From Muribaculaceae bacterium (GTDB lineage Bacteria; Bacteroidota; Bacteroidia; Bacteroidales; Muribaculaceae), in contig JAFLTV010000001.1 of the NCBI GenBank assembly GCA_022509105.1, positions 124,001 to 188,000 of the forward strand: 64,000 nucleotides of DNA. Reading direction: 5' to 3'. Shown here in pieces: positions 10,599-60,317 of this stretch. A model generated the notes under the pieces. The model was not told where the DNA came from and ran no database searches. It saw only the letters and a list, made by a program, of their open reading frames with translations. Each line of letters opens with the position of its first letter. The first letter of the stretch is position 1. A program made the translations under genes and the position numbers.

Positions 10599-13361
10599 AT
10601 GGGATTGGCAGAAGAACTAAAGAAAAGGGTGTTATTGCTTGATGGTGGCCTTGGGACAATGATTCAAAAATACGGATTCACGGAGTCAGATTACCGTGGA
10701 CGGGAATTCTTGTCTCATCAGAAACCCCTTTCCGGTTTAAACGATATCCTTAATCTTACAAAACCAAGTTCTATAAAAAAGATTCATGAAGCTTATTTAG
10801 AATCAGGTTGTGATATAATAACGAGCAACACCTTTAATTCAAATAAAATATCATTGGCTGATTATGGGTTGGAAAATGATTCAGATTTAATCAGAAGAAT
10901 AAATAGGGAAGGAGTTTTAATAGCCAAGGAAGCCATAGAAGACTACAGGAAGAGAAATTCCGGAGACAACCCTCTATATGTGGCAGGTTCAATCGGACCT
11001 ACCAACAGGTCGGCATCAATGAGCCCTGACATATCCAATCCTGAAATAAGGAATGTCACTTATGATGATTTATTTGAAGCCTATGAAGTTCAGATAGAAG
11101 GATTGATAGAGGGGGGGGCTGATATCTTGTTGTTTGAAACATTTTATGATACGTTGAATCTTAAGGCCGGTTTGGCAGCAGCTCAACATGCGATGCATAA
11201 ACTGGATACAAGACTGCCTATAATGGTCTCTGCCACCATTTCCGACAAATCAGGCCATATCCTTTCAGGACAAACTTTAGAAGCTTTCATTACGACCATT
11301 AATGATTTTGAAGGTGTTATCTCCATAGGGTTGAATTGCGGGTTTGGTCCGGAAGATATGAGTTCATATCTTGAAGTGATATCCAAATATAGCAATCATT
11401 ATATATCATGTCATCCAAATGCCGGATTGCCTGACGAGACCGGATGCTATAAAATGGATCCGGATGATTTCAAAGATAAAGTTGCAAAACTTCTAGAAAC
11501 CAGTCTTTTGAATATAATCGGAGGATGTTGTGGCACTACACCTGATCATATATTCCGGATCAAGAAACTGGTAAACGAAGTAGAGCCATATACTCCTAAA
11601 GAATTGAAAGACGCATTAAGATTGGCCGGAAATGATGTCTTGATAAAGAAAAGACATAAAGACTTCAGGGTGGTAGGTGAGAGATGCAATGTCGCCGGTT
11701 CAAGGAAATTCTTGCGCTTGATAAAAGAAAACAACTTGGAGGAGGCTTCAGAAATTGCAAAAAAGGAGATAGAGGCCGGGGCTGAGATAATAGACATAAA
11801 TATGGATGATCCTTTGATTGATTCGCAAGCAGAAATGATCAGATTCATCAGATATATCAACTCAGAACCGGAAGTTGCCAAAGTTCCTTACATGATCGAT
11901 TCCTCAAAATGGGAAGTGATAGAGAACGGCTTAAAAAACATACAAGGAAAAGGAATTGTAAACTCCTTATCGTTGAAAGAAGGAGAAGAGGAATTTATAA
12001 GGAAAGCCGGAAAGGTAAAAGAACTTGGTTTCTCATTGATAGTGATGGCCTTTGATGAGAAAGGTCAGGCCGACACTTACGAAAGGAAAATAGAGATTTG
12101 TGAAAGAGCCTACAGATTGCTGACTGAAAAATGTGGCTACAAACCTGATGACATCATATTTGATGTTAATATCATGGCAATAGCTACAGGTATACCGGAA
12201 CATTCCAAATATGGAATAGAATTTATCAGAGCAGTAGAATGGGTAAAAAAGAACCTGCCGGGAGTAAAAACAAGCGGAGGAGTAAGTAATTTATCTTTTT
12301 CATTCAGAGGGAAGAACAAAATAAGGGAATATATTCATTCAATCTTTCTTCATCATGCAGTAGCCTCCGGTCTGGACATGTCTATAGTGAATCCGGGCGC
12401 TTTACCTGACTATTACAGTATTCCTGAAAATATAAGGAATATAATAGAGGATGTCTTATTGACCGGCGATCAGAAAAGCGAAGCCATGTTGTTAGATCTT
12501 GTATTGGATTCTAATCCTGAAAAAAGTAATGAACCAATCGAAGAAAAAAGAAAAAGCCTTTCAGTGGAGGAAAGGCTGAAGGAAGATATGGTTAAGGGAG
12601 ATCTTTTACATATAAAAGATGATCTTGAGGAAGCTTTGACAGACTATGAAGATCCTTTGAAAATAATAGATGGTCCGTTGATGGATGGGATGAAAACAGT
12701 TGGAGATCTGTTTGGAGAGGGAAAGATGTATCTTCCTCAAGTGGTAAAAACAGCCCGGGCCATGAATGTGGCAGTCGATTTCCTGAAACCCTATATTGAT
12801 GAAAAGAAGAATGATGAAAATTCGGCAAAGACAGGGAAAATTGTGATAGCCACAGTGAAGGGAGACGTTCATGATATCGGGAAAAACATAGTCGCTACTG
12901 TGTTGGCTTGCAATAATTTTGAAGTGATAGATCTTGGCGTTATGGTGCCTTCTCAGGAAATAATAGAGAAGATTAAAGAGGAAAAACCGGACATATTATG
13001 TCTTTCAGGTTTAATAACACCTTCATTGACTGAGATGGCGAATGTTGTTGATGAATTAGAAAAAGAGGGGATAAATATACCTGTAATGGTGGGAGGAGCT
13101 GCAACCTCAGGGCTTCATACATTGTTGCATATATCGCCTAAATATTCCGGTGTTGTAATTCACATGAATGATGCTTCGCAAAACCCTATCGCTGCTAAAA
13201 AATTGCTTGGAGAGGAAAGTAGAAAAAGCTTTCTGGAAGAATTAGAAAAGAAGAATCACGAACTTAAAGAAAACCTTTCAGAAAAAAACCAAGGCATTGT
13301 ATCTTTTAAAGAGGCAACAGAAAAAGGACGTAACAGAACGAAAACATCTGATAAGGTTTGA
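10599..13361 (+). CDS. metH: cobalamin-dependent methionine synthase lacking the reactivation domain
   Basis: MetH moves a methyl group from methyl-THF via cobalamin to homocysteine. The 920 residues contain the homocysteine domain (1-320; zinc ligands in GLNCGFG and GGCCGTTPDH), the pterin domain (about 340-620; FRVVGERCNVAGSRKF), the cap (about 640-745) and the B12 domain with KGDVHDIGKN (cobalt ligand His758). Full-length enzymes of E. coli type are about 1,230 aa and continue into a SAM-binding reactivation domain. Here the protein ends in VSFKEATEKGRNR.., the usual linker, and the missing domain follows as a separate gene 8 nt downstream. A run of eight G (11111-11118) lies in the homocysteine domain. 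Confidence 0.95.
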   Translation: MGLAEELKKRVLLLDGGLGTMIQKYGFTESDYRGREFLSHQKPLSGLNDILNLTKPSSIKKIHEAYLESGCDIITSNTFNSNKISLADYGLENDSDLIRRINREGVLIAKEAIEDYRKRNSGDNPLYVAGSIGPTNRSASMSPDISNPEIRNVTYDDLFEAYEVQIEGLIEGGADILLFETFYDTLNLKAGLAAAQHAMHKLDTRLPIMVSATISDKSGHILSGQTLEAFITTINDFEGVISIGLNCGFGPEDMSSYLEVISKYSNHYISCHPNAGLPDETGCYKMDPDDFKDKVAKLLETSLLNIIGGCCGTTPDHIFRIKKLVNEVEPYTPKELKDALRLAGNDVLIKKRHKDFRVVGERCNVAGSRKFLRLIKENNLEEASEIAKKEIEAGAEIIDINMDDPLIDSQAEMIRFIRYINSEPEVAKVPYMIDSSKWEVIENGLKNIQGKGIVNSLSLKEGEEEFIRKAGKVKELGFSLIVMAFDEKGQADTYERKIEICERAYRLLTEKCGYKPDDIIFDVNIMAIATGIPEHSKYGIEFIRAVEWVKKNLPGVKTSGGVSNLSFSFRGKNKIREYIHSIFLHHAVASGLDMSIVNPGALPDYYSIPENIRNIIEDVLLTGDQKSEAMLLDLVLDSNPEKSNEPIEEKRKSLSVEERLKEDMVKGDLLHIKDDLEEALTDYEDPLKIIDGPLMDGMKTVGDLFGEGKMYLPQVVKTARAMNVAVDFLKPYIDEKKNDENSAKTGKIVIATVKGDVHDIGKNIVATVLACNNFEVIDLGVMVPSQEIIEKIKEEKPDILCLSGLITPSLTEMANVVDELEKEGINIPVMVGGAATSGLHTLLHISPKYSGVVIHMNDASQNPIAAKKLLGEESRKSFLEELEKKNHELKENLSEKNQGIVSFKEATEKGRNRTKTSDKV

Positions 13362-13369
13362 TGTTATAA

Positions 13370-53482: not shown

Positions 53483-53905
53483 ATGGAAAAGCTAAAATCA
53501 ATTTTTTTGGCAGTTTTTATGCTGTCGTTATCGCTGCCGATTTGCGCACAGTCGGCGAGTGAAAGTGAAGAAATGTTGAAAATGGTGGCCAACGAATTGA
53601 ATTCCGAGTGTCCGATGGATTATGGAAACGACATAGCCATGACATCAGTGACTTACAGCAACAAAACCTTGGAAATCAATATGGATATGCCAATAATCGA
53701 CGACACTTTATATCCCGCGATTTCCGACACCTTCAGAGATTCATTCTTGCAAGGTTTATTCGGGACTGCAGGCGGTGAGTATATCTATGAGTGGATGACC
53801 ACAGCAAATGTGAAACTGAATATCGTTTTCAAATTGAAAGGTGGCGCCAAAAGGACTATGACTTTCACGCCAGGTGATTTAAGGAAATATATAAATACTC
53901 ATTAA
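53483..53905 (+). CDS. secreted protein of unknown function at the end of the gcv operon
   Basis: A 140-aa protein with a clear Sec signal peptide (MEKLKSIFLAVFMLSLSLPICAQS, cut near residue 23). The mature part (about 115 aa) has alternating strands and no motif I recognise; an anonymous sequence such as ELNSECPMDYGNDIAMTSVTYSNKTLEINMDMP marks it. It starts 6 nt after the lpdA stop and is followed by the operon terminator at 53932, so it is probably cotranscribed. A role in glycine metabolism is not implied by its periplasmic location. Confidence 0.7.
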   Translation: MEKLKSIFLAVFMLSLSLPICAQSASESEEMLKMVANELNSECPMDYGNDIAMTSVTYSNKTLEINMDMPIIDDTLYPAISDTFRDSFLQGLFGTAGGEYIYEWMTTANVKLNIVFKLKGGAKRTMTFTPGDLRKYINTH

Positions 53906-53965: not shown

Positions 53966-54027
53966 ATTATATAATCCTTTACTTGCATTTCTGAATTCAA
54001 TTAGACCTTTTTGAATGGCCCGGCTAT

Positions 54028-54134
54028 AAAAAAGTATAGCCCCCACAGTGTTTCCACTAACTGGAGGCTATTGTCCCGGTCCTGTTTCACGTATGTGTAA
54101 AAGCCCTTTTATAGAACTATGAATGGCCGGGAAT
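54028..54134 (-). repeat. 107-bp direct repeat, copy 1: structured 3' end of the 72-aa gene
   Basis: Identical base for base to 54461-54567. In the minus-strand RNA it begins 11 nt after the stop of the gene at 54146. It can form a closing stem TCCCGG/CCGGGA, small hairpins in the AAAAGGGCTTTT and TTTACACATACGTGAAA segments, and at its end (54071 down to 54028) an intrinsic terminator: stem ATAGCC-CC/GG-GGCTAT with an inner GTG/CAC hairpin followed by six T. A plus-strand reading would lack the T tract, so it is oriented with the gene. Whether it acts only as a terminator or as an RNA element or sRNA is open. Confidence 0.9.
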
Positions 54135-54145
54135 GCTCTTTTATA

Positions 54146-54364
54146 TTAATTACCAAAATTTGTAACGCCTGTTGTGTCTTCAAAGAAGCCTATGGAGAAA
54201 ATCCACCAAAGCAAGAGAGCTACTAAAACCAAAACCCCGAGCCAAAGCCATAGACGGTTGATTTTGCGTGTATGATATCTTTCCCTATCTTTCTGATGAG
54301 CCTCCATAGATTTTGCAATCTCTCCGGCATTATCATTATTATGGTGTCTGTTTTCGTGTGCCAT
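54146..54364 (-). CDS. small single-helix membrane protein (copy A of a tandem pair)
   Basis: A 72-aa protein with a charged, His/Asn-rich head (residues 1-33; NNDNAGEIAKSM) and one membrane helix (about 38-60, INRLWLWLGVLVLVALLLWW), then a short acidic tail. About 34 of 54 aligned residues match the neighbour at 54581, so the two are paralogues from a duplication. No family is recognised. The 13-bp motif TAATGTTATAATA lies 18 nt upstream of the ATG, as in the neighbour. The gene is followed by a 107-bp structured 3' element. The orientation of the tail (cytoplasm or periplasm) cannot be decided. Confidence 0.75.
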   Translation of the reverse strand: MAHENRHHNNDNAGEIAKSMEAHQKDRERYHTRKINRLWLWLGVLVLVALLLWWIFSIGFFEDTTGVTNFGN

Positions 54365-54382
54365 TTTTTAATTCTTGTTTGA

Positions 54383-54395
54383 TATTATAACATTA
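54383..54395 (-). promoter_or_regulatory. shared 13-bp upstream motif, copy A
   Basis: TAATGTTATAATA on the minus strand, 18 nt upstream of the gene at 54146. The same 13 bases occur at 54798-54810, 19 nt upstream of the paralogue. It may be part of a promoter, or a leftover of the duplication. Confidence 0.5.
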
Positions 54396-54460
54396 CTGGT
54401 GTTTATATTGTTCACTTAAAATTCATAAAAGTTTCGTGCCCTTGATAAACTCAAAAATTC

Positions 54461-54567
54461 AAAAAAGTATAGCCCCCACAGTGTTTCCACTAACTGGAGG
54501 CTATTGTCCCGGTCCTGTTTCACGTATGTGTAAAAGCCCTTTTATAGAACTATGAATGGCCGGGAAT
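54461..54567 (-). repeat. 107-bp direct repeat, copy 2: structured 3' end of the 65-aa gene
   Basis: Base-for-base equal to 54028-54134; the offset is exactly 433 bp. It starts 13 nt after the stop codon of the gene at 54581 and ends on the minus strand in the terminator hairpin plus T tract (54504 down to 54461). The perfect identity contrasts with the diverged genes to which the copies belong. Confidence 0.9.
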
Positions 54568-54580
54568 ATATTTTCTATCT

Positions 54581-54778
54581 TTATTGAACAGAGGCTTCAA
54601 AAAGGCCTAATCCAAAGATAAACCAAATGAGGATAGCCACCAAAAACAAAACTGCCAACCAAAGCCACAAACGATTCATGCGGCGCGTTGTTTCTCTTTG
54701 TTTGTCTTTTTCTTCAGCCAACATAGACTTAGCGATCTGATCGGCATTGTCTGTGTTTTGTTTTTCGTTTCTTTCCAT
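54581..54778 (-). CDS. small single-helix membrane protein (copy B of a tandem pair)
   Basis: A 65-aa protein with a polar head (NTDNADQIAKSMLAEEKDKQ), a basic stretch (TTRRMNR) and a membrane helix (about 37-59, LWLWLAVLFLVAILIWFIF). The positive residues before the helix predict a cytoplasmic N-terminus. It is paralogous to the gene at 54146 and comes first in transcription. A TAATTTTG box is found at 54830-54837. The function is unknown; small single-helix proteins often modulate membrane enzymes or act as toxins, but nothing here decides this. Confidence 0.75.
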   Translation of the reverse strand: MERNEKQNTDNADQIAKSMLAEEKDKQRETTRRMNRLWLWLAVLFLVAILIWFIFGLGLFEASVQ

Positions 54779-54797
54779 AACTTTTCTGTTTATGCAT

Positions 54798-54810
54798 TAT
54801 TATAACATTA
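54798..54810 (-). promoter_or_regulatory. shared 13-bp upstream motif, copy B
   Basis: TAATGTTATAATA on the minus strand, 19 nt upstream of the 65-aa gene; see the identical motif at 54383-54395. Its position is just downstream of the TAATTTTG box at 54830. Confidence 0.5.
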
Positions 54811-54829
54811 AATTCTTCGAGGATGTTTA

Positions 54830-54890: not shown

Positions 54891-56366
54891 TTAAAAAGGC
54901 ACTTCATTGTTATCCGGAGCAACCATATTGTTCATTTTGGAACTCAGTTTGAAAGTGTTGTCATTTAGCGTTTCCTGCATTATGTCATATCCTTCTTCCC
55001 AATTTTCAAACTTGGCATATTTTGAAATAAAATGCAGTTTTACATCACCTACTGCTCCCGATCTATGTTTTGCCACTATTAAATAAGCCAAACCTCTGAT
55101 ATTATTACCCTCGGCATCTTCCGAAGCTTTAGTGTAATATTCAGGCCGATGAATAAAACAGACTATATCAGCATCTTGTTCGATAGCTCCTGATTCACGC
55201 AAGTCTGATAACACGGGGCGTTTATCCTCACGGCTCTCAGTGCTACGGTTTAATTGAGACAATGCTATTATTGGAATATCCAGCTCTTTAGCGAGCGCCT
55301 TTAATGAACGGGAAATAGTGCTGACCTCCTGTTCACGGCTACCTAATTTGAGGCCGGTGGCATTCATCAGTTGCAGATAGTCTATCATTATGAGTTTGAC
55401 ACCCTTTTCTCTTACAAGTCTTCTTGCCTTAGTTCTTAATTCGCTTATAGACAGTCCGGGCGTTTCATCAAGGTAAAGAGGAGCTCCATAAACTGTTCTT
55501 ATTCTTGTGTTGAGCCTGTCTTCCTCGTCGGGAGTTAAACGTCCACTTTTAATTTTCTCTCCCTCAAGACTGGCGACATTGCTTATCAATCGTTTGATTA
55601 ATTGCACATTCGACATTTCAAGAGTGAAAATAGCAATAGGAACATTATAATCCACCGCCATATTCTTTGCCATAGACAAGACAAAAGCCGTTTTTCCCAT
55701 AGCCGGACGGGCGGCTATAATGATTAGATCGGAATTTTGCCAACCGGAGGTTATTCGGTCTAATTCACGATAACCGGTTTGAAGACCGGAAAGACCGCTT
55801 TCACTGTTAGCTGCATTCTGAATCTGCTCCAGAGCCGTGTTGATTACAGGATCGATCTGTGTGACTTCCCTTTTTAATTGATTCTGTGAAATCTCGAAAA
55901 GCTGGCTCTCGGTTTCCTGAAGGAGTTCTTCAATATCGTTACTTTCATCATAAGCCTTAGTTTCAACATTCGCCGCAAAAGAGATGAGACGCCTCGCAAG
56001 ATATTTTTGAGCCACAATTCCGGCATGAAACTCGAGATTAGCTGATGAATAAACGCGGGCTGTCAATTCTGCAATATGAACAGCTCCGCCCACTTCTTCC
56101 AAAGTGCCGTCGCGTCTTAATTGCTCAGTGACGGTTATTATATCTATAGGCTTTTGATTTAAACCAAGAGTGGTTATAGCCTGAAAAATCTTTTTGTTGA
56201 CAGGATCGTAGAAACTATCGGGCACTAAGAGATCGCATACATTCATATATGCATCCTTTTCAAGCATACAGGCTCCTAAAACAACCTCTTCGAGTTCTGA
56301 ATCTCTTGGGGGCAGTTTCCCTGTTATATCGGTAAGTGTTTGTTTATGTTCAGGTTTCTTTGGCAT
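54891..56366 (-). CDS. dnaB: replicative DNA helicase DnaB
   Basis: DnaB is the hexameric helicase at the replication fork. The 491-aa protein has the N-terminal collar (PRDSELEEVVLGACMLEKDAY), the linker helix, and the RecA-like domain with IAARPAMGKTAFVLS (Walker A), LIMIDYLQLM (Walker B), KALAKELDIPIIALSQLNRSTESREDKRPVLSDLRESGAIEQDADIV. The ATG at 56366 overlaps the menA stop (TAATG), so an upstream leader of 26 codons is discarded. It is the last gene of the ribE-cmk-ispH-tadA-menA-dnaB run. Confidence 0.95.
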   Translation of the reverse strand: MPKKPEHKQTLTDITGKLPPRDSELEEVVLGACMLEKDAYMNVCDLLVPDSFYDPVNKKIFQAITTLGLNQKPIDIITVTEQLRRDGTLEEVGGAVHIAELTARVYSSANLEFHAGIVAQKYLARRLISFAANVETKAYDESNDIEELLQETESQLFEISQNQLKREVTQIDPVINTALEQIQNAANSESGLSGLQTGYRELDRITSGWQNSDLIIIAARPAMGKTAFVLSMAKNMAVDYNVPIAIFTLEMSNVQLIKRLISNVASLEGEKIKSGRLTPDEEDRLNTRIRTVYGAPLYLDETPGLSISELRTKARRLVREKGVKLIMIDYLQLMNATGLKLGSREQEVSTISRSLKALAKELDIPIIALSQLNRSTESREDKRPVLSDLRESGAIEQDADIVCFIHRPEYYTKASEDAEGNNIRGLAYLIVAKHRSGAVGDVKLHFISKYAKFENWEEGYDIMQETLNDNTFKLSSKMNNMVAPDNNEVPF

Positions 56367-57274
56367 TATGGAAAAATAAAAATTGAATCCGGATTCTCCG
56401 GTTTTAATGCTGCAAAGATAATAAGAAGATATATGCTGACACAAAGGAGGAGCAGAGAGGTTATCTTCAATATATCGTTAAGTTTTGCACCGGTAGATAC
56501 TCTCATTTTGCTCCAGAGCATCGAGTGGAAGCCAAAATAGGAAAGCCAACCTGCTGAAACCCAAAAGGGTAAAGGAGAAGAAGCCATTGCCAGCAAAATG
56601 GCTGAACATGCTCCATTGAAGAAATAAACCATGTTCATAACTTTTCTACCCAGAATAACAACAGAAGTTCTTTTGCCTACCGCTTTGTCGTCTTCCATAT
56701 CCCGGTAGTTATTAACAATAAGCACATTGGCAGCCATCAAGCCTACTGCCACGGCCACAAACCAGGTGGTTGAGTCAAAATATAGGATTTCAGTTTGAAC
56801 ATATTCCGTGAAAATCACAGGTACCAACCCGAAGAAAATTATTACGGCTATCTCCCCGAGTCCGTTATGGGAGAGTGGGAAAGGACCGGCACTATAAGCC
56901 AAAGCAAATATTCCTATGGCCAATCCTACAAAAATCAACCACCAGCCTCCCCAGATTATAAGACTGCAACCGAAACAGGCTGCAACAAGAAGGGTGAGAT
57001 AGGTGGCTCGCTTCATTGACTGAGGTTTTATATCTCCTTCTGTGACTCCTCGTCGGAAACCTTCCCTTCCTTTTCTGTCAAGGCCGTTTTTATAATCATA
57101 ATATTCATTTGCGAAATTTGAGGCTATTTGACATAAAACTGCAAAACAAAGGCAAATAAGGAAAGGCAAAACAGAAAACCCATGATGGAAAATGGCACAT
57201 GCCGTGCCTGCTACCACTCCTGCAACACTGACCGGAAGGGTGCGAAGTCTCATGGCTTCAATCCATTCTTTCAT
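56366..57274 (-). CDS. menA: 1,4-dihydroxy-2-naphthoate polyprenyltransferase
   Basis: MenA attaches the isoprenoid tail to DHNA for menaquinone, the quinone of anaerobic fumarate respiration. The 302-aa protein starts MKEWIEAMRLRTLPVS and has the Asp-rich site FANEYYDYKNGLDRKG, the second metal site NNYRDMEDDKAVGKRT and about eight membrane helices. The ATG at 57274 follows the tadA stop by one nucleotide, and menA overlaps dnaB by one base. Confidence 0.94.
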   Translation of the reverse strand: MKEWIEAMRLRTLPVSVAGVVAGTACAIFHHGFSVLPFLICLCFAVLCQIASNFANEYYDYKNGLDRKGREGFRRGVTEGDIKPQSMKRATYLTLLVAACFGCSLIIWGGWWLIFVGLAIGIFALAYSAGPFPLSHNGLGEIAVIIFFGLVPVIFTEYVQTEILYFDSTTWFVAVAVGLMAANVLIVNNYRDMEDDKAVGKRTSVVILGRKVMNMVYFFNGACSAILLAMASSPLPFWVSAGWLSYFGFHSMLWSKMRVSTGAKLNDILKITSLLLLCVSIYLLIIFAALKPENPDSIFIFP

Positions 57275-60242: not shown

Positions 60243-60284
60243 CATTGAGTTTTTCATGGTATTAGATTTTAAGGTTAATTGAAG

Positions 60285-60315
60285 ATTGATTGTCGGGAGG
60301 CAATCAATTTTTTTT
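60285..60315 (+). terminator. intrinsic terminator or attenuator in front of the histidine phosphatase
   Basis: Perfect 8-bp stem ATTGATTG (60285-60292) / CAATCAAT (60301-60308), 8-nt loop and eight T (60308-60315). No plus-strand gene upstream needs it, because ribE is on the other strand, so it probably terminates a short leader RNA or acts as an attenuator. Confidence 0.75.
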
Positions 60316-60317
60316 AT

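Follow-up and report, generated by a model that had tools for sequence, protein, structure and literature searches.

The two small membrane-protein gene cassettes found in a Muribaculaceae genome each end in an element that is almost certainly a conserved structured RNA and that, judged by its sequence, represents an RNA family that is new, although its general kind is known. Members of the Muribaculaceae are abundant in the gut of mice. The element lies in a stretch of 64,000 nucleotides of assembly GCA_022509105.1 (contig JAFLTV010000001.1, positions 124,001 to 188,000; referred to here as the window). The favoured reading, at about even confidence, is that the element forms the 3' module of a stress-regulated mRNA and would yield an approximately 100-nt 3'UTR-derived sRNA acting mainly in trans. 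The trans action, the targets and the stress signal are inferred.

A preliminary description of this locus had proposed two small minus-strand genes for proteins of 72 and 65 aa, and both were recovered. ORF A (54581-54778) encodes a 65-aa protein with one hydrophobic stretch, and ORF B (54146-54364) encodes a 72-aa protein that is a paralogue of ORF A by protein and nucleotide comparison. The two proteins were said to be paralogous but diverged (34 of 54 residues identical), which is consistent with the 58% identity measured over residues 3-62 of the 65-aa query. Searches of Pfam and NCBIfam with the small proteins returned only matches below the cut-off. A repeat search verified that the same 107 nt follow both genes with 100% identity (54028-54134 and 54461-54567), and the distance from stop codon to element, given as 11-13 nt, was measured as 11 nt for the 72-aa gene and 13 nt for the 65-aa gene. 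Each element is encoded on the minus strand and consists of two domains. Domain I of element A (54506-54566), comprising a stem P1, an internal loop with the sequence UUCA and a hairpin P2, is matched by covariance model R1 with 65.5 bits; domain I of element B (54073-54133) is identical according to the repeat search and the covariance model match. Domain II was assigned by sequence and folding as an intrinsic terminator, located at 54461-54505 in element A, where the hairpin carries an apical GAAACACU and is followed by a T-run, and at 54028-54072 in element B. The stem TCCCGG/CCGGGA that had been noted earlier is present in the element, as is the terminator hairpin with its six T residues. 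Promoters of ECF sigma factors consist of a -35 AAC box and a -10 GTT box at a fixed spacing, and the motif reported ahead of each small ORF turned out to be an ECF-like site in both cassettes. These minus-strand sites, TAAAC-...-TGTTATAAT for cassette A (54799-54829) and TGAAC-...-TGTTATAAT for cassette B (54384-54414), were identified by a regular expression and by the consensus of 50 anchored sites in relatives. The upstream neighbour of the cassettes is the minus-strand gene for the DnaB replicative helicase (54891-56444; Pfam DnaB_C, E 1.1e-104). Convergent to the cassettes is a plus-strand ORF of 140 aa (53483-53905) whose start resembles a signal sequence and for which Pfam gave no match. 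A 12-nt repeat of the element start that follows element B (54012-54023) was considered as a third partial copy and rejected, as its local score of 22 is reached by 6.8% of shuffles.

The whole 107-nt element has a minimum free energy of -40.3 kcal/mol compared with a shuffled mean of -24 (z -5.19), and none of 200 shuffles was as good. Domain I is built, in this order, from a 5-bp P1, a C.A mismatch, a C-G pair, the sequence [A/G]UUCA, the hairpin P2 and a variable linker that leads back to P1. The A of the P1 mismatch is invariant and the C is found in 94% of copies, the UUCA is unpaired and invariant across copies, and a U.G pair within the domain is nearly invariant (51 of 52). P2 follows the pattern A/G-G-U-Y-C-U ... 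A-G-G-G-Y-Y, and its loop usually has 5-6 nt. A covariation test across homologues had been proposed for this element and revealed compensatory pairs. When 41 sequences were aligned with MAFFT, 92.9% of the cells paired and six pairs showed two-sided changes; these changes occupy 19 cells compared with 5.2 in shuffles, a value reached by none of 500 shuffles. An alignment of 52 distinct rows, which was fitted to the very structure whose covariation it scores, gave 93.1% pairing, six two-sided pairs and 20 cells compared with 6.0. The aligned sets contain distinct sequences only, and the first alignment lacks L054 and includes a mis-cut L032; RNAalifold applied to it recovered only the four central pairs of P1. 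Structures that were slid along the alignment scored below the true structure. These compensatory changes demonstrate the predicted fold of domain I. Pairing holds for 578 of 621 cells on the gene strand, compared with 497 of 621 on the complement; P2 makes use of G-U wobbles and consequently pairs better on the gene strand, which indicates an RNA molecule with the same direction as the genes. A type I toxin-antitoxin pair would call for an antisense RNA covering the small-protein mRNA, and the G.U pairs of the fold place the RNA on the gene strand. The stem of the domain II terminator varies freely in sequence among the copies. Of 49 distinct cases, 37 have the tetranucleotide CACT inside the terminator hairpin, and in 32 it stands no more than 4 nt from an apical loop. 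Among terminators with perfect stems, CACT stands at the tip in five of the six linked to an element and in none of 17 others, small numbers in both groups.

The occurrence of the element beyond this genome had been raised as a question and was answered positively: a DNA search detected copies in 14 of 61 sampled genomes of the genus (Muribaculaceae), and the covariance model detected copies in 34 of 61, leaving 27 of 61 without a detectable copy. The metagenome-assembled genomes HAN053, HAN057 and HAN058 carry the element. In the 32 genomes with strong matches (50-74 bits), the element is situated behind the dnaB-linked small-protein gene in 32 of 32 and starts between approximately 7 and 193 nt past a stop codon. 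A predicted position at the 3' end of the small-gene mRNA, with its own terminator assigned by folding, was likewise found in all 32. The small-protein family itself is matched in 56 of 61 genus genomes (E <= 0.01), 22 of which are without a detectable element. The loci L026 and L190 (G022 and G423) contain tandem small-protein genes with a single element at the end, so that here one element serves a gene pair rather than each gene. A protein profile run against 149 genomes of the order matched 13, and the best match outside the own genome reached 33.8 bits. On a tree of DnaB, built from the 38 of 46 loci with a DnaB piece longer than 150 aa (80 small-gene rows overall), the presence of the element requires 5 changes compared with 11.6 when shuffled, and thus the element follows descent with repeated loss or gain.

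Outside the genus, no convincing copy was detected among the sampled family and order genomes. At the family level, a model containing P1 matched 10 of 149 genomes, eight of them in the genus, and a P1-free model matched 29 of 297 genomes, 28 of them in the genus; among 247 genomes at the order level, the matches were the own genome and two weak ones. These large searches employed the stricter filters of Infernal, so diverged copies may be missed. The weak matches outside the genus look like chance: the UUCA core is absent by eye in G131 and G146, though their outer arms can pair, and the 5-nt arms of G196, G542 and G559 are not complementary. Inside the genus, a pattern tolerating up to three mismatches found 214 places compared with 239 in the reversed control (summed). 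Of the matches with one or two mismatches that lie apart from the known copies, four were examined (G032, G014, G041:C17 and G039); they possess no complementary arms, and three of the four fall into open frames of 178-333 codons. Rfam 15 gave no match at the gathering score at the locus, with four nearby matches (E 3.4-7.8) all far below cut-off, and none at cut-off in ten relatives. Two sub-threshold matches in these relatives touch the element: on L081 it is Phe_leader (29.4 bits, cut-off 55), and on L080, at the edge, ctRNA_p42d (24.9 bits, cut-off 50).

In two relatives, G028 and G041, the element is found behind a gene for a protein of 68 aa instead of the dnaB-linked gene. The 68-aa protein shows two hydrophobic stretches by eye and gave no alignment with the 65-aa protein. 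Its gene is surrounded by what we take, from the sequence, to be a pyrF-like gene and, in G028, also a glyA-like gene. The P1 stem of both copies reads CGAGT/ACTCG, compared with CCCGG/CCGGG elsewhere, and the C.A mismatch, the C-G pair, the UUCA and P2 are kept. Both copies were initially weak with the P1-containing model and are matched by a P1-free pattern with zero mismatch. The 5-nt P1 arms pair perfectly in both, compared with none of seven chance matches examined, and the predicted stem is re-paired by compensatory changes. The 68-aa family is present in 48 of 61 genus genomes. Where the downstream region of the 68-aa gene was read (18 of 30 loci), the element was found in G028 and G041 only, and none was detected downstream in G018, the nearest 68-aa relative by protein identity. 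A lipoprotein-like gene located just upstream of the 68-aa host (L114 in G041 and L171 in G028) has an ECF-like site.

When the upstream regions of 50 small genes were anchored on the GTT of their conserved motif, AAC was found 21 nt before this GTT in 41 of them, and the motif thus combines AAC and GTT boxes at the fixed spacing of ECF-type promoters. The regular expression NAAC-N16/17-NGTT, which was composed after the host promoters had been seen, found a match at 45 of the 51 small genes that bear an element and at 18 of the 28 that do not, as well as at 11 of 23 genes for the 68-aa protein and at 10 of 24 superoxide dismutase (SOD) genes; seven of these SOD sites lie at -52 to -60. On shuffled sequence the match rate was 1.2-1.9%. 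Among 433 long ORFs there were 24 matches, which by reading comprise 11 SOD genes and 13 others; these 13 include SufC-like, rubrerythrin-like and the L171/L114 lipoprotein-like genes. Pfam supported the assignment of SOD, glutathione peroxidase, thioredoxin and ABC ATPase among motif-bearing genes, and the AAC box is absent from the glutathione peroxidase site by the same expression. A position weight matrix derived from the small genes placed 10 of 23 68-aa genes above the 99% shuffle level; scores above 12 bits were reached by none of 293 long ORFs and by only 3 of 20 SOD genes. The core pattern of this matrix occurred at 62 places in four genomes compared with 45 in a reversed control, a modest excess, and 23 of these 62 loci were read. 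The upstream tests of the 68-aa gene cover 23 of 30 fetched loci out of the 48 genomes with the gene, and those of SOD cover 20 (matrix) or 24 (expression) of 30 fetched loci. ECF-like promoters were seen ahead of SOD, SufC-like, thioredoxin-like and rubrerythrin-like genes (L255-L261, L246, L241 and L160), and sites at such genes suggest that an oxidative-stress regulon may exist in the genus. Within the window, a further ECF-promoter-like site was observed on the plus strand at 13341, 28 nt ahead of an ORF starting at 13369. The nearest parallel in the literature comes from Bacteroides thetaiotaomicron, in which the non-canonical -10/-30 promoter PM2 is enriched at oxidative-stress genes (PMC7366714) and contains TGTT near -10, resembling promoters of the SigH-1 regulon (PMC12596196). 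The small-gene promoter shares with PM2, as described there, two boxes near -10 and -30, the TGTT near -10 and the tie to oxidative-stress genes. This likeness concerns the TGTT and the box positions described there, and a link between the two promoters is regarded as a lead.

The coding regions of the two cassettes provide a reference for the identity of their elements. ORF A and ORF B of the window share 60% nucleotide identity while their elements are 100% identical. ORF A shares 79% nucleotide identity with ORF A of HAN053, 67% with that of HAN057 and 64% with that of HAN058, and ORF B is 69% identical to that of HAN057 and only 60% identical to the diverged ORF B of HAN053. The window elements are 88-92% identical to the other elements compared. 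A similar pattern is seen in HAN057, whose two elements are 91% identical and share changes that are absent from every other row compared; its second element is equally close to the elements of HAN053 (92%) and HAN058 (91%). As the coding regions remain diverged, gene conversion inside the genome is the best explanation of the identity over 107 bp, though the same picture would result if only the element had recently been duplicated again. Gene conversion, recent spread and selection on an RNA had all been offered as causes, and the first gains support from these comparisons, while the last is shown by genus-wide conservation with compensatory pairs. Spread by a mobile element found no support in searches with the exact core pattern in viral contigs or in searches of phage and plasmid collections, none of which gave a match. 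The element suggests concerted evolution of an RNA while the neighbouring coding regions drift apart. In HAN053, the second element is a decayed remnant (score 40 compared with 30 for the best of 1000 shuffles) and its ORF is still open. HAN058 (L079) contains cassette A with a single element; the gene that comes next shares 67% identity with the gene following cassette B in HAN057 (L078), a gene order expected if recombination between elements had removed cassette B.

The function that is favoured for the element would proceed as follows. An ECF-type sigma factor would transcribe the short small-membrane-protein mRNA from the NAAC-N16/17-NGTT promoter seen in the sequence, and transcription would be ended by the terminator that the element itself appears to provide. 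The 3' part of this transcript is predicted to fold into domain I (P1 with the C.A mismatch, unpaired UUCA and P2) and domain II (the terminator, in which CACU often lies close to the tip). The RNA may then be freed by cleavage or may be active within the full mRNA, and the invariant unpaired UUCA and P2 would touch another RNA or a protein. Gene conversion probably holds the two copies of this genome identical. In two relatives a different small gene, with a promoter of this type, precedes the element, which would keep the output of the element in the same regulon. Several observations favour such a host-independent RNA: two unrelated hosts share one promoter type, the HAN053 element decayed while its ORF B persists, the downstream gene is inconsistent across 38 loci, and the invariant letters of the core include the unpaired UUCA. 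At these 38 loci, a convergent ORF follows in 18 and a same-strand ORF in 14 (within 300 nt in seven), with six undetermined. Against this reading stands the absence of a detectable copy from 27 of 61 genomes, while 18 of 28 element-free small genes do have the promoter. A separate promoter of the sigma-ABfr type inside the ORF (TTTG-N17-21-TAnnTTTG) was considered as a source of a free sRNA and found before only 2 of 52 elements; lacking it, a free sRNA would need to be processed from the mRNA.

The lack of an internal promoter in 50 of 52 cases also speaks for a role of the element in cis, in which the fold would govern the stability, translation or membrane delivery of its own mRNA and no independent RNA would exist. 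This is the alternative that survives best, and it is considered possible but rather unlikely. Every confident copy is located at the 3' end of a gene whose product is small and hydrophobic, and such products at both hosts would be expected under a cis role as well. In addition, the sequence AAGGTT just before the ATG accompanies the element, being present in 37 of 52 rows compared with 4 of 28 without it, counts that include some start codons mis-chosen by the script. It was found before none of 195 long ORFs and is present, for example, at the small genes L009 and L010. However, AAGGTT is absent at the 68-aa gene (0 of 23), the host gene differs in G028 and G041, HAN053 kept ORF B with a decayed element, and 22 of 56 genomes with the small gene are without a detectable element. 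A pairing of the 5' AAGGTT-ATG with the element was also considered, but by eye the version in the window cannot form it.

A further alternative is that domain I recruits or titrates an RNA-binding protein, so that the UUCA, the U.G pair and the C.A mismatch would be protein contacts and not a seed. The invariant unpaired UUCA, the conserved C.A and the U.G in 51 of 52 copies, set amid an otherwise variable RNA, agree with this idea. The Bacteroides protein RbpB, whose sRNA ligands are enriched in a 41-nt motif, is however reported to favour single-stranded regions (PMC11697453), and a protein-binding role is judged improbable. An ordinary terminator that was recently duplicated would account for the identity of the two copies and for the distal half of the element, which is an intrinsic terminator, but is most improbable because a genus-conserved and covarying domain I precedes the terminator. 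A riboswitch-type leader that steers the next gene through its terminator is equally hard to credit and was ruled out by gene order. In its favour are the aptamer-like fold that precedes a terminator, the position of copy A ahead of ORF B and the same-strand ORF that comes next at 14 of 38 loci (7 within 300 nt). Against it, the gene that follows copy B is convergent, as is the next ORF at 18 of 38 loci, and the same-strand ORFs are of many sizes.

The favoured trans-acting sRNA resembles the 3'UTR-derived sRNAs mapped in B. thetaiotaomicron in its location at an mRNA 3' end, the shared intrinsic terminator and the probable co-regulation with its host (PMC7366714), and an sRNA from the 3'UTR of glutamine synthetase is described as another such example (PMC9731577). 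Different from these known sRNAs, the element has a conserved domain of two stems whose internal loop is invariant, and it was found in a single genus, with two unrelated hosts. It is also similar to the candidate structured RNAs of microbiomes, some from Bacteroidetes, in having been discovered computationally (PMC8040213). With the supplementary tables of that study set aside, no paper on the element was found in the literature searched, and a search by family name and RNA terms found no literature on regulatory RNAs of Muribaculaceae. A more far-reaching proposal is offered as doubtful, a little more so than the cis role: the element may be a genus-specific oxidative- or envelope-stress RNA that plays an OxyS- or RyhB-like part in gut anaerobes, a portable 3' module swapped among small membrane-protein genes of one ECF regulon, whose core of C.A, UUCA and U.G hairpin would recognise a new kind of partner. 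The defined core, the likely stress promoter and the host switch together offer a clean test of whether the 3'UTR RNAs of Bacteroidota regulate in their own right or as parts of the host mRNAs. The FopS/GibS sRNAs (RF04319), a Bacteroidetes family of paralogous sRNAs, come from the same order and likewise end in an intrinsic terminator (PMC11697453). FopS is described there as a single-stranded 5' stretch plus terminator, unlike the element, which gave no cut-off match to RF04319. The sole FopS match of the window in this Muribaculaceae genome is located on the plus strand at 60247-60317 (73 bits, cut-off 56), approximately 5.7 kb from the element.
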